Shown: one piece after another, positions 3,306 through 15,293 of the stretch
Layout of the letters: each line of letters begins with the position of its first letter
Numbering within the stretch: the first letter of the stretch is position 1
Virus record (IMG/VR): IMGVR_UViG_3300030107_000416
Span: 1-30,050 of that record
Source: a virus
DNA: 30,050 nt
Strand: one strand, 5' to 3'
Made by a program: the position numbers and the translations under genes
The notes under the pieces: generated by a model
The model's input: only the letters and a program-made list of their open reading frames with translations
The model's database searches: none
Told to the model about the DNA's origin: nothing

Positions 3306-3562
3306 CAATATACAGATGCGAATGTGGTAAAGAAGAAAAAGAAATAGGTAAAGCAACCATAGTTTTAAGGGATGGTAAATGGGTATGTAAGGAAGCTGAA
3401 TGTAGTTGTGGTAAATATATGGATAGTAAACCTGAAGATGGTATGCCACAACTAAAAAGAACTGAAGCATCACTAAGTAAAAAAAAAAGACACGATAAGT
3501 TGTGGGATGGTGCGAAAGAAAAACTAATAGGAGAAAGAGGTGTTAACGAACCATTTAAGTAA
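3302..3562 (+). CDS. small zinc-ribbon-like protein
   Basis: 86 residues with paired cysteines: YRCECGKEEKE near residues 4-14, and VCKEAECSCGKYMDSK near 30-45, which could bind one zinc. The rest is Lys/Glu-rich and ends INxPF-like as VNEPFK. It begins inside the stop of the DUF3310 gene (ATGA) and ends at a TAATG junction with the next gene. No function recognised. Confidence 0.65.
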   Translation: MTIYRCECGKEEKEIGKATIVLRDGKWVCKEAECSCGKYMDSKPEDGMPQLKRTEASLSKKKRHDKLWDGAKEKLIGERGVNEPFK

Positions 3563-4817: not shown

Positions 4818-5075
4818 ATGAATACACACGGAGGTAAAAGAATAGGTGCAGGTAGAAAACCTAAAGCAGATGAACAAAAGCTAATAGAGAAACTTACACC
4901 TTTAAATGAATTAGCATTAGATTCATTAAAAAAAGGATTAGAGAAAAAAGAACAATGGGCAGTTAAGTTATACTTTGAATATTTTTATGGTAGACCACAA
5001 CAAAGGGTTGATGTTACAACTAATGAAGAAAGTCTTAATATGCCATTAATAAACTTTGTAAAAACTGAATCTTAA
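4818..5075 (+). CDS. terminase small subunit (TerS-like)
   Basis: 85 residues. It begins NTHGGKRIGAGRKPKADEQK, the GGxRxGAGRKPK motif found at the start of many phage small terminases, followed by a helical region (NELALDSLKKGLEKKEQWAV, then KLYFEYFYGRPQQ) and a short tail. TerS recognises phage DNA and hands it to the large subunit; it usually acts as a ring in the infected cytoplasm. At 85 residues it is short for the family. It overlaps the large terminase frame by about 11 nt, and a late element plus palindrome precede it. Confidence 0.8.
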   Translation: MNTHGGKRIGAGRKPKADEQKLIEKLTPLNELALDSLKKGLEKKEQWAVKLYFEYFYGRPQQRVDVTTNEESLNMPLINFVKTES

Positions 5076-6389: not shown

Positions 6390-7034
6390 ATGAAGGTCAA
6401 AATTAAGAAGCAGGGCAAAGTAAAAGAGTTCAAGCTAATAAAAAAATGGTCAGATGTAACTCTTGAAAAATGGCTAAAACTAATAGACTTTCATAAAGGA
6501 AGTAAGAGTAGTGAGGCGACAGAAACAATAGCAGTTTTATCTGATATTCCAAAGAAGTTAATAAAGCAATTGGAATTAAAAGATGTAGCAGTTATAATGA
6601 GTAACATTGCTGAACTACAAAAGAAGCAAAATAGTTCTTTAAAAAGAGTAATTGAAGTAGAGGGTAAGGAATATGGATTCCATCCTGATTTGGATAGTAT
6701 AACATTAGGTGAATATGCAGACATTGAAACATTTATAAAAAATGGAATTGAAAATCATTTACCTGAATTAATGGCGATACTATATAGACCAATAATGGAG
6801 AAAGGAGAAAATGGAGTCTATACAATACAAGCGTATGATGGCAATATACGGATTAGGACAGAGCAAATGAAAAAGATGTCAGCAGAACAAGTGCAAAGTG
6901 CATTGGTTTTTTTTTATCATTTCGGGAACGTATTGTTAACGACTTTGCCATTGTATTTGATGGAACGGCTGAAGGAAATGAAGATGCAGTTGCAACAGAA
7001 TCCTTCGCAGAAAAGTGGGGATGGTTTGGAGTAA
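6390..7034 (+). CDS. tail assembly chaperone, zero-frame (short) form
   Basis: 214 residues. The N-terminus (KFKL-like EFKLIKKWSDVTLEKWLKLI) and the later ITLGEYADIETFIK, PELMAILYRPI and SALVFFYHFGN segments look like Bacteroidetes-phage tail assembly chaperones acting on the tape measure; assignment rests on pattern and on the frameshift described next. After nine consecutive T residues (6907-6915) the zero frame suddenly uses codons rare elsewhere here (CGG, CTG, TCG, CAG, many TTG), while the -1 frame there uses normal codons. This is expected where two frames are both read. The gene stops at TAATG, where ATG 7034 lies in the -1 frame. A late element abuts the start. Confidence 0.7.
   Translation: MKVKIKKQGKVKEFKLIKKWSDVTLEKWLKLIDFHKGSKSSEATETIAVLSDIPKKLIKQLELKDVAVIMSNIAELQKKQNSSLKRVIEVEGKEYGFHPDLDSITLGEYADIETFIKNGIENHLPELMAILYRPIMEKGENGVYTIQAYDGNIRIRTEQMKKMSAEQVQSALVFFYHFGNVLLTTLPLYLMERLKEMKMQLQQNPSQKSGDGLE
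6908..6914 (+). other. probable -1 ribosomal frameshift site (T TTT TTT)
   Basis: In the zero frame the codons read GTT TTT TTT TAT, so positions 6908-6914 form a classic slippery heptamer U UUU UUU. The -1 frame is open from here to 7171. Slipping would join 175 zero-frame residues to 85 residues of the -1 frame (about 260 in total), the lambda G/GT arrangement conserved in long-tailed phages. Confidence 0.65.
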
Positions 7035-7171
7035 TGTATAGATTAACAAATGGTGAAATAGTAAATTTAGAAAGAATAACAAATCTTAGCTTGTTAGAAT
7101 GTTTAACTTGGCTAAGTTATGAAACAGATTTAAATGCACAAAATAAAGTAAAATATGGCAGTAAACAATAA
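6914..7171 (+). CDS. tail assembly chaperone, -1 frame extension (GT-like T domain)
   Basis: The -1 frame encodes 85 residues from the slip site to TAA at 7169-7171. The stretch TESFAEKWGWFGVMYRL followed by TNGEIVNLERITNL and ECLTWLSY is clearly protein-like and resembles the second domain of chaperones in Bacteroidetes phages. The part before ATG 7034 (which codes FAEKWGWFGV) has no ATG, GTG or TTG, so it can only be translated by frameshifting. A shorter 45-residue form could also start at ATG 7034. The end overlaps the next gene by 17 nt. Expected role: the minor fused product that binds the tape measure during tail assembly. Confidence 0.65.
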   Translation, partial: LSFRERIVNDFAIVFDGTAEGNEDAVATESFAEKWGWFGVMYRLTNGEIVNLERITNLSLLECLTWLSYETDLNAQNKVKYGSKQ

Positions 7172-7703
7172 GACATATAATAACGTAGTAAACACAATAG
7201 CTAGACTAGGTGAATACCACGAACAAATATCAACAGTATCTATTGGAGATATATATGATATTTCTTTGGAGAAGCTTGAAAAATATCCACTACTTCATAT
7301 AAATCCTGTAAACGTAACAACAGGAGATAGTGAGTTGGTTTATAACTTTCAATTATTCATAATGGATATGGTAAGTGAAAAAAGTGAATGGCAAACTGAA
7401 CAACATTCATTACTTACTAAATTAGTAAACACTAAGAATAACGAACAAGAAGTATTTAATCAATGTTTAGAAATAGCAACAGACTTTATAGGAATGTTAA
7501 GACATAGTTCAAGACAATCATTAGAGGGAACAAATGATATTAATGCACCACTATATTTTACACAAGATCAATTTACAATAGAACCATTTAGTGAAAGGTT
7601 TGATAATCTATGTTGTGGATGGGTGTTTAACATAGGTGTTAAAGTTATGAATGACTTTGATACTTGTAATATTCCTGTAACTAATGCAGGAGCAGGATAT
7701 TAA
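7155..7703 (+). CDS. virion/tail protein of Bacteroidetes-phage type
   Basis: 182 residues. The pattern EYHEQISTVSIGDIYDISLE, KYPLLHINPVNV, NFQLFIMDMV and a late C-C-G-W segment (NLCCGWVFNIGVKV) is a recurring layout in tail regions of Bacteroidetes phages; a tail terminator or completion role is possible by size and position. Overlaps the chaperone extension by 17 nt, and a TAATG junction follows. No catalytic motif seen. Confidence 0.65.
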   Translation: MAVNNKTYNNVVNTIARLGEYHEQISTVSIGDIYDISLEKLEKYPLLHINPVNVTTGDSELVYNFQLFIMDMVSEKSEWQTEQHSLLTKLVNTKNNEQEVFNQCLEIATDFIGMLRHSSRQSLEGTNDINAPLYFTQDQFTIEPFSERFDNLCCGWVFNIGVKVMNDFDTCNIPVTNAGAGY

Positions 7704-8220: not shown

Positions 8221-8795
8221 TGAAAACTGAAAATTTAGAAAGGTACTTAAATTCTTTTGGTAAAGAAGTAGTTAAAAATGCTAGAAAAAACTTATCTAAA
8301 GCAGGAAAAGGTGGAGGTAAGTTGGAGCAATCAATAAAATTTCAAGTGGTTACTGATACTGATGGTTTTAAAGTACAATTCTATATGGCAGATTATGGAA
8401 CATTTGTAGATAAAGGAGTTAAAGGAGCAGGTGGTAAAATTAAGTCAGGAAAACATAAAGGAACTTGGGGTGGAAGAAGGCATTATATAACTTGGCAAGG
8501 CAAAAGAAAAGATAGTCCATACAAATTTGGTAGTGGAAAAGGAAAAAAAAATGGAATATATAAAGGTATTGGTTCTTTTATAAGAAAAAAGGGATTGCAA
8601 CCAAGAAGTGAGGGTGGACAATTTATGACAACAGCAGGATTAAAAATAGCAATAGTTAAAGTATTATGGACAAAAGGAATACACGGAATAAGTTTTTTTC
8701 AAAAGTCTTTAATGCTTGGAATGAAACAATTTGGTAAAGACTTACTAAGTAATGTAAAAGAAGATATAATAGCAGGATTAACAACAGTAAAATAA
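8220..8795 (+). CDS. tail completion (HK97 gp10-like) candidate
   Basis: 191 residues, very basic. It starts with a helix and a KNARKNLSKAGKGGGKLEQSI segment, followed by MADYGTFVDKGVKGAGG, and ends with a helix (GIHGISFFQKSLMLGMKQFG). An N-terminal helix, a Y-G-x-F-V-D-x-G-V-x-G turn and a C-terminal F-F-x-x-x-L helix are seen in HK97 gp10-type tail completion proteins; the central Gly/Lys-rich stretch is longer than usual. Assignment is by pattern and position only. Confidence 0.5.
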   Translation: MKTENLERYLNSFGKEVVKNARKNLSKAGKGGGKLEQSIKFQVVTDTDGFKVQFYMADYGTFVDKGVKGAGGKIKSGKHKGTWGGRRHYITWQGKRKDSPYKFGSGKGKKNGIYKGIGSFIRKKGLQPRSEGGQFMTTAGLKIAIVKVLWTKGIHGISFFQKSLMLGMKQFGKDLLSNVKEDIIAGLTTVK

Positions 8796-13823: not shown

Positions 13824-15293
13824 ATGGCAAATACAACAGAAACAGCAACATTTAATGTAAAATCAAATATAGGTGAAGTAACTAAAGATGCCGCAGGATT
13901 AGCAGGAGAATTTAAAATAATGGGCGTTTCTTTAAATTCTGTTAAAGCAGGATTTGTGTCAGTTGGCAAAACAGCAAAAGCATCATTTGCAACTATAAAG
14001 GCAGGAATAATGTCAACAGGGATTGGAGCATTATTAATAGCAGTAACTTCATTAATATCTTATTTTACAAATACTAAAAGGGGAGCAGACCAGTTAGACC
14101 AAGCATTTACGGCAATGGGAGCAACTATTGATGTAATAAAAGATAGATTAAGTAAAGTTGGTGAAGCATTGTCATTTGTATTTTCAGGAAAATTTAGAGA
14201 AGCAGGAGAAGCATTGAAAGGTACTTTTTCAGGTATTGCAGATGAAGTAGAAAGAGAGGTTGCAGCAATGGTTGCTTTAAAGAAAAGAACACAAGAACTT
14301 AGGGATGCTGATATGGAGTTTATGGTTCAAAAGGCAAAAACTAGACAAGAAATTGAAAAAGCTAGATTAATTGCAGAAGATGAAACAAAGTCAGCATCAG
14401 AAAGATTAGAAAATCTAAAAAAAGCATTAGAGCTAGAAGCAGAAACAACACAAGCAGAATTGGTACTTGCTAGAGAAAGAATGAAGATTCAGGAAGAAGA
14501 AATGGCATTAAGCGAAAATTCGGCAGAAGATGAGCAAGAATTAGCAAGACTAAAAACAGAAATTATAGAAAAAGAAACAGCGTCTATAAAAATGCGAAGA
14601 AGGGTTGTTACTGAAGTTAATGCATTAGAAAGAGAAATACAAGCAGAAGCAAAAGCTAGAGCAAAAGAAAAACAAGATATACTAGATGCTGAGATTGCAG
14701 CACAAATAAAAGCAAATGATGAATGGAATAAAGCACAAGAAGAAAAGTATAAAAAAGAAGTAGAAGAAGCTAAAAAAGCAGCAGATGAAAAAATAGCAGA
14801 AGCAAAAAGAGTAGCAAAAGAAGAAGAAGATATTGCTAAAGCTGTTGAAAGTGCAAAAGAAGGATTAATAAGACAAGGGTTTGGAATAGCACAAAGTTTA
14901 GCAGGAGAAAATGCAGCTTTATCCAAAGGGGTTGCAGTAGCACAAACAGTTTATTCTACTCAACAAGCAATAATGGCAGCTTTAGCAGCGACTTCTGTTG
15001 GTGATAAATTACTACCTTATCCTTTAAGATTAGCAAACGCAATAGGAGCAGGATTAATGGGTGCGATTGCTGTAAAAAAGATATTATCTACAAGCCCAAC
15101 AGGTGGAGGTACTGATAGTGTAAGCACACCATCAGCTACAACTCCTTCAACACCTGCACCACAAATGATGTCAGGAGCATTTGAATTAACAGGAGGACAA
15201 GCGCCTGAACCATTACGTGCTTATGTACTTACTGATGAAATGACTAATAGTCAAAACCAATTAGCAAACATAAGACGTAGAGCAACAATATAA
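13824..15293 (+). CDS. tail tape measure protein
   Basis: 489 residues. The N-terminus (FKIMGVSLNSVKAGFVSVGKTAK) leads into a hydrophobic segment near 58-82 (AGIMSTGIGALLIAVTSLIS). A long charged coiled coil follows, from about 150 to 350, rich in Ala/Glu/Lys (EAKARAKEKQ and similar). A second hydrophobic region (about 365-415) has AQTVYSTQQAIMAALAATSV and LANAIGAGLMGAIAV, then a Thr/Pro-rich linker. This layout is that of tail tape measures, which set tail length and move through the tube at infection. At roughly 0.15 nm per residue, the tail would be about 70 nm, consistent with a siphovirus. Confidence 0.8.
   Translation: MANTTETATFNVKSNIGEVTKDAAGLAGEFKIMGVSLNSVKAGFVSVGKTAKASFATIKAGIMSTGIGALLIAVTSLISYFTNTKRGADQLDQAFTAMGATIDVIKDRLSKVGEALSFVFSGKFREAGEALKGTFSGIADEVEREVAAMVALKKRTQELRDADMEFMVQKAKTRQEIEKARLIAEDETKSASERLENLKKALELEAETTQAELVLARERMKIQEEEMALSENSAEDEQELARLKTEIIEKETASIKMRRRVVTEVNALEREIQAEAKARAKEKQDILDAEIAAQIKANDEWNKAQEEKYKKEVEEAKKAADEKIAEAKRVAKEEEDIAKAVESAKEGLIRQGFGIAQSLAGENAALSKGVAVAQTVYSTQQAIMAALAATSVGDKLLPYPLRLANAIGAGLMGAIAVKKILSTSPTGGGTDSVSTPSATTPSTPAPQMMSGAFELTGGQAPEPLRAYVLTDEMTNSQNQLANIRRRATI

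Follow-up and report, generated by a model that had tools for sequence, protein, structure and literature searches.

A conserved T9 run at the frame switch of a probable tail assembly chaperone gene in Bacteroidota phages: a candidate site of RNA polymerase slippage

Frameshifting in tail assembly chaperones is textbook ribosomal recoding in phages. In the lambda proteins gpG/gpGT, the N-terminal part coats the tape measure protein and the C-terminal domain of the long form recruits tail-tube subunits. The locus described here lies in a window of 30,050 nt (the whole stretch of viral DNA that was analysed, from IMG/VR record IMGVR_UViG_3300030107_000416) and raises the question of how a conserved C-terminal domain, located in the −1 frame behind nine consecutive Ts, is reached, and whether the ribosome or the host RNA polymerase is the agent that slips. 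A first-pass annotation had read the site as a programmed −1 ribosomal frameshift in a tail chaperone, with a codon signature of dual coding. The argument rests on the following features:

6390–7034, plus strand: zero-frame open reading frame of 214 aa, comprising the N-terminal part of the putative tail assembly chaperone and its own C-terminal tail after the run (phrog_32199, E 7.7e-14)
6907–6915, plus strand: T9 homopolymer, the site of the programmed frame change (run of at least nine Ts in 234/234 distinct complete relatives)
6908–6914, plus strand: ribosomal slippery heptamer T_TTT_TTT, in register, inside the T9 run
6914–7171, plus strand: −1 frame coding region after the slip, 85 codons, encoding the C-domain FFLSFRER..KWGW (positional substitutions; homologous in-frame in Duneviridae)
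6915–7034, plus strand: dual-coded stretch in which the zero and −1 frames are both open
7155–7703, plus strand: next gene, phrog_30964-like (weak), whose start overlaps the end of the −1 frame
13824–15293, plus strand: tape measure-like protein (phrog_3336 tape measure, E 1.2e-9) encoded 6.7 kb downstream, on which a tail chaperone would be expected to act

Read from ATG 6390, the zero frame runs through GTT TTT TTT TAT at 6906–6917, which confirms both the nine Ts and the in-register T_TTT_TTT; the run is the only one of nine or more Ts in the window. The −1 frame is open from 6857 (after TAG 6854) to TAA 7169–7171, and both the 85 open codons from 6914 and the fusion product of 260 residues are as first described. 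In 32 other genes tested, the longest stop-free −1 stretch was 51 codons. The earliest ATG, GTG or TTG of the −1 frame is ATG 7034, so the view that the C-domain requires a frameshift holds. Two A runs also lie inside genes of the window: an A9 run (8543–8551), which is not conserved, unlike T9, and is replaced by 4–6 As in relatives, and an A10 run (3479–3488).

The two-frame gene is carried by a family of viruses infecting marine and freshwater Bacteroidota. In IMG/VR, the zero-frame protein has at least 237 relatives and the −1 domain 546; wider searches reached relatives down to about 25–30% protein identity, including three Bacteroidota MAG contigs and the cultured Nonlabens phages P12024S/L. 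The C-domain lay in the −1 frame in all 160 sequences of the first round (window counted). An HMM of the C-domain applied to 308 sequences yielded 236 distinct ones, two of them cut at a contig edge, leaving 234 complete sequences, which fall into 41 clusters when grouped at 70% identity of the C-domain; the collection itself was scanned with a profile of a closer subset, since one built from every C-domain was too diverse. The run is T9 in 214 of these sequences, T10 in 19 and T12 in one, and a run of seven or eight Ts occurs in none of the 234. Its length of 9–10 is kept across differing codons and registers (NTT TTT TTT TAY/TGG, CGG TTT TTT TTT GTT, CTT TTT TTT TTC TAC and ATG TTT TTT TTT TAY). 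The first-pass annotation had named relatives without the run, or with the C-domain as a separate gene, as evidence against its reading: none of the 234 complete relatives lacks the run, and no close relative has a C-domain with a good start of its own. Length variation of the run at the DNA level, as in phase variation, was considered and rejected: a T10-pattern scan of IMG/VR gave two matches, both of them substitution variants that are still two-frame, and a T8-pattern scan gave three matches, all at unrelated loci.

Dual coding is borne out by the codon positions at which substitutions accumulate, which switch at the run. Among 109 close sequences, nucleotide diversity at zero-frame positions 1, 2 and 3 was 0.196, 0.099 and 0.403 before the run, 0.131, 0.274 and 0.218 in the first part of the overlap, 0.108, 0.405 and 0.138 in its second part, and 0.072, 0.316 and 0.142 in the region that codes in the −1 frame only. 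With a switch at the run and an intermediate stretch just after it, these substitution patterns show that the −1 frame is under selection directly from the T run onward, while constraint on the zero-frame tail beyond the intermediate stretch is weak. The codon signature, as originally proposed, held for one frame only. The zero frame does use rare codons (CGG, CTG, TCG and CAG occur 0, 4, 5 and 27 times among 8128 other codons) and has a codon adaptation of 0.264 over 6915–7031, below all 702 comparison windows, but the −1 frame, which had been called normal, reaches only 0.467 in the overlap, the 1st percentile of in-frame windows, and is normal (0.805) only beyond it. Codon usage is thus compromised in both frames within the overlap, as is predicted by overlapping constraint. 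Nor is a long dual-coded stretch unusual, as had been thought, since relatives have one too, with zero-frame overlaps of about 18–86 codons. In relatives L189, L191, L197 and similar ones, the zero frame overlaps almost the entire −1 domain, and in L194 and L214 the overlap after the run is about 80–86 codons, far longer than in the window.

The fusion of the N-part with the −1 C-domain is real. Its two halves recur in Duneviridae, where Cellulophaga phage Ingeline (gene 5) and Flavobacterium phages laban6-1 (gp017) and FPSV-F7 encode a homologous N-part that continues into a C-terminal region. The junction FF-x-x-[CFM]-[QR] is aligned between the two groups; unlike the gene studied here, those of Duneviridae consist of one continuous frame of 293–301 codons (293–301 aa) and have only T6 at the homologous place. 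The profile match of the N-part is modest (E 3e-6 to 1e-3 within a five-protein set) and that of the C-domain weak, and the single-frame arrangement would support the reality of the fusion, as backing and not as proof. Flavobacterium phage 6H (L428:10352-10927) was dropped as evidence of a split version, its relative FPSV-F7 having a 293-aa single frame; 6H has a 191-aa form, and the two genomes differ in a short patch around the T6 run, which puts their frames out of step.

Based on these observations, we propose the following hypothetical multistep scheme, in which (i) one gene would give rise to a short form of 214 residues, read straight through, and a long form of 260 residues, with an N-part of 175 residues in common and the last 85 residues of the long form read from the −1 frame; (ii) the host RNA polymerase, mainly, would slip on the T9 tract (rU:dA hybrid) and add one U in some transcripts; (iii) ribosomes on these U10 transcripts would read GUU UUU UUU UUA UCA... 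without translational frameshift; (iv) the N-part would form a coat on the tape measure protein; and (v) tail-tube subunits would be brought in by the C-domain, present only on the less abundant long form, as with gpG/gpGT in lambda. We consider it an even chance that the switch is made mainly by host RNA polymerase slippage on T9. Slippage by the polymerase would fit the sequences somewhat better than slippage by the ribosome, a tilt that comes from the conserved run length, the missing T7-C variants, the avoidance of A/T runs of nine or more, and the lack of a stimulator.

A homopolymer at or above the length for slippage (about nine) stands at the frame junction, with its length conserved. 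Where the run needs it, the last base of the heptamer is T (211 of 211 sequences); where upstream Ts already give T10, it is not T in 12 of 13. Variants with T7-C, in which both proteins and U_UUU_UUC are kept, numbered 0 in an IMG/VR scan against at least 120 with T9, a result that is suggestive only, P being about 0.05 at 36 independent clusters with the codon usage of both frames allowed for. The family's other genes avoid A/T runs of nine or more (4 seen, 15.8 expected, P 5e-4) and show no such deficit for runs of eight (24 seen, 25.3 expected); the avoidance could also reflect replication slippage. For bacterial RNA polymerase, 9 nt is the usual length of both run avoidance and slippage (PMC1088944; PMC5009743), and the E. 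coli enzyme slips preferentially on T runs (PMC6260861). Insertion, the direction of slip needed at T9 here, outnumbers deletion about threefold in mRNA sequencing, and T8 reporters give the two at similar levels (PMC6260861).

The main alternative is classic programmed −1 ribosomal frameshifting at U_UUU_UUU, in which the extra Ts would be by-products of the flanking V/L-F-F-Y/W residues; we regard it as a serious contender, somewhat less than evenly probable. What speaks against polymerase slippage is that the ribosomal heptamer, in register as T_TTT_TTT in all 234 complete relatives, also fits every sequence, and that the ribosomal route is established for tail chaperones. The gene type and the −1 direction agree with lambda G/GT and other phage tail chaperones (PMC5009743; PMC3711429), and in E. 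coli heptamers of the form H_HH.U_UU.Y rank with the efficient ones (PMC4066793). Phe-Phe and the flanking residues are conserved in both frames, and V/L/I-F-F-Y together with a strict heptamer gives T9 in most lineages. Conservation of the heptamer cannot separate the two kinds of slippage, because any T9 run contains an in-register T_TTT_TTT. Ribosomal frameshifting accounts less readily for the absence of U_UUU_UUC wherever additional upstream Ts have not made the run longer; in E. coli, ribosomes frameshift on U_UU.C no less well than on U_UU.U, and U_UUU_UUC is a natural IS heptamer (PMC4066793). Nor does it readily explain why run length stays at 9–10 when the register moves. A downstream stimulatory structure is frequent with ribosomal frameshifting, not obligatory; over 42 representatives, no conserved RNA structure was found beside the run (mean z −0.33 to −0.08, with pseudoknots outside the model). 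As both routes yield the same protein, proteomics cannot separate them. Of the programmed ribosomal −1 frameshift first proposed, programmed −1 access to a conserved C-domain stands, and the ribosome as the slipping agent is not established.

The identity of the product is a separate matter from the agent of the switch. Two products with a common N-part and a shifted, overlapping C-extension are conserved in relatives, and the gene is probably a frameshifted tail assembly chaperone, although its membership in this class is not proven. The first-pass naming as tail chaperone thus stands for the two-frame design and becomes probable for the identity, with weak profile and fold matches and the genomic context in its favour. 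Profile matches were found to Phage_TAC_7 (weak, E 0.028, in 2 of 44 members) and to phrog_166 'tail protein' (E 8.5e-4, in 5 of 44 members). The AlphaFold model of the N-part has a pLDDT of 83.5, and among its fold matches in BFVD are viral proteins that carry the name tail assembly chaperone (prob 0.99, E 7.6e-3; prob 0.97, E 0.21), with modest E values. Neither half had a significant match in PDB fold searches or in Pfam, a negative that is compatible with an undetected relative. We think it unlikely that the frame switch is real and the product another neck or tail-completion protein. This reading draws on the position of the gene, which has TerL as its immediate upstream neighbour, is followed by neck-like genes and precedes the tape measure-like gene by 6.7 kb and several genes, on its place in Duneviridae after portal and adaptor genes, and on the weakness of the Pfam and PHROG chaperone matches; it is opposed by the Ingeline homolog, with an annotated tape measure gene about 1 kb downstream of it, by the names of the BFVD fold matches, and by a two-frame architecture that is typical of tail chaperones. 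As to TerL itself, the first ATG (5185) comes only after the sequence for its Walker A segment (GGRGSGKS); CTG 5065 (5065–5067), which overlaps the end of the small-terminase-like ORF 4818–5075 and seems conserved in relatives, may be the real TerL start.

Very improbable, in our estimate, is translation of the C-domain alone by termination–reinitiation at the zero-frame stop (TAATG 7032–7036 in the window), where ATG 7034 overlaps TAA 7032–7034. P12024L_41 is annotated as a separate gene from such a TAATG, and a frame-matched ATG stands at the zero-frame stop in 49 of 230 relatives, but the remaining 181 of 230 have none, reinitiation in the window would begin past the conserved FFLSFRER and KWGWF segments, and both constraint and conservation of the −1 frame set in at the T run. 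In P12024S/L, too, annotators used the TAATG, yet the conserved −1 sequence starts upstream, at the run. An independent C-domain gene with its own start is rejected for the window (no start before 7034) and for most relatives. Least credible of all, to the point of being negligible, is a sequencing or assembly error in a gene that is truly one continuous frame, as the error-proneness of homopolymers and the single-frame homologs in Duneviridae might suggest: the same −1 arrangement, with at least nine Ts, recurs in 234 distinct sequences including cultured P12024S/L, which rules out an assembly artefact, the zero-frame ORF goes on with a conserved tail, and the only two matches of the T10 scan keep both frames.

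We suggest, with a confidence that falls just short of even, that polymerase slippage on T9–T10, in place of the lambda-type ribosomal frameshift, determines the ratio of short to long chaperone in a large and widespread family of Bacteroidota phages, and that, given the single-frame fusion in Duneviridae, the homopolymer is where the mode with two products arose or disappeared. Hundreds of phage genomes share the two-product design and yet conserve a polymerase-slippery homopolymer. Should the slip occur during transcription, it would be the host RNA polymerase, and not the ribosome, that fixes this ratio, with homopolymer length as the dial.

Among known systems, the gene resembles the lambda gpG/gpGT type (also P2 E/E', HK97 and the Mu gp41 region) in producing a short and a −1 extended form from one gene, in lying within the structural block of a long-tailed phage, and in a C-extension that forms a small helical domain in which aromatic residues are conserved. 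In contrast to that type, its N-part belongs to another sequence family (phrog_32199), its switch is T9–T10 instead of a short heptamer and has no stimulator that we could find, and it follows TerL, far from the tape measure gene. With the transcriptional slippage genes Thermus dnaX (9-nt run), Shigella mxiE/spa13, IS elements (A8–A10) and Citrobacter tssM1 (A11), it has in common a conserved homopolymer of about nine at a two-frame junction, whose length varies little, and frames that are joined by one inserted base. Those are cellular or IS genes, several of them proven by RNA or protein data, whereas here slippage is a prediction for a structural gene of a DNA phage. Frameshifted tail chaperones are already known, as is transcriptional slippage at T9/A9 (PMC5009743); in the open-licence PMC literature, we found neither a tail chaperone described with a T9 site nor one for which transcriptional slippage is reported, and within this limited literature the use of T9/A9-type slippage for a tail chaperone appears to be a new combination. 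The closest cultured counterparts are genes 38–39 and 40–41 of Nonlabens phages P12024S and P12024L (JQ823122, JQ823123), which have the same halves, the same position after TerL and T9 in the same register (CTT TTT TTT TAT). They differ in sequence (29% identity) and in being annotated as two hypothetical genes, the second from the ATG of the TAATG overlap. In P12024L, genes 40–41 (L160:5552-6246) are the halves of one frameshifted gene, and our analysis corrects the annotation of both phages by restoring the fusion that is now split in two.
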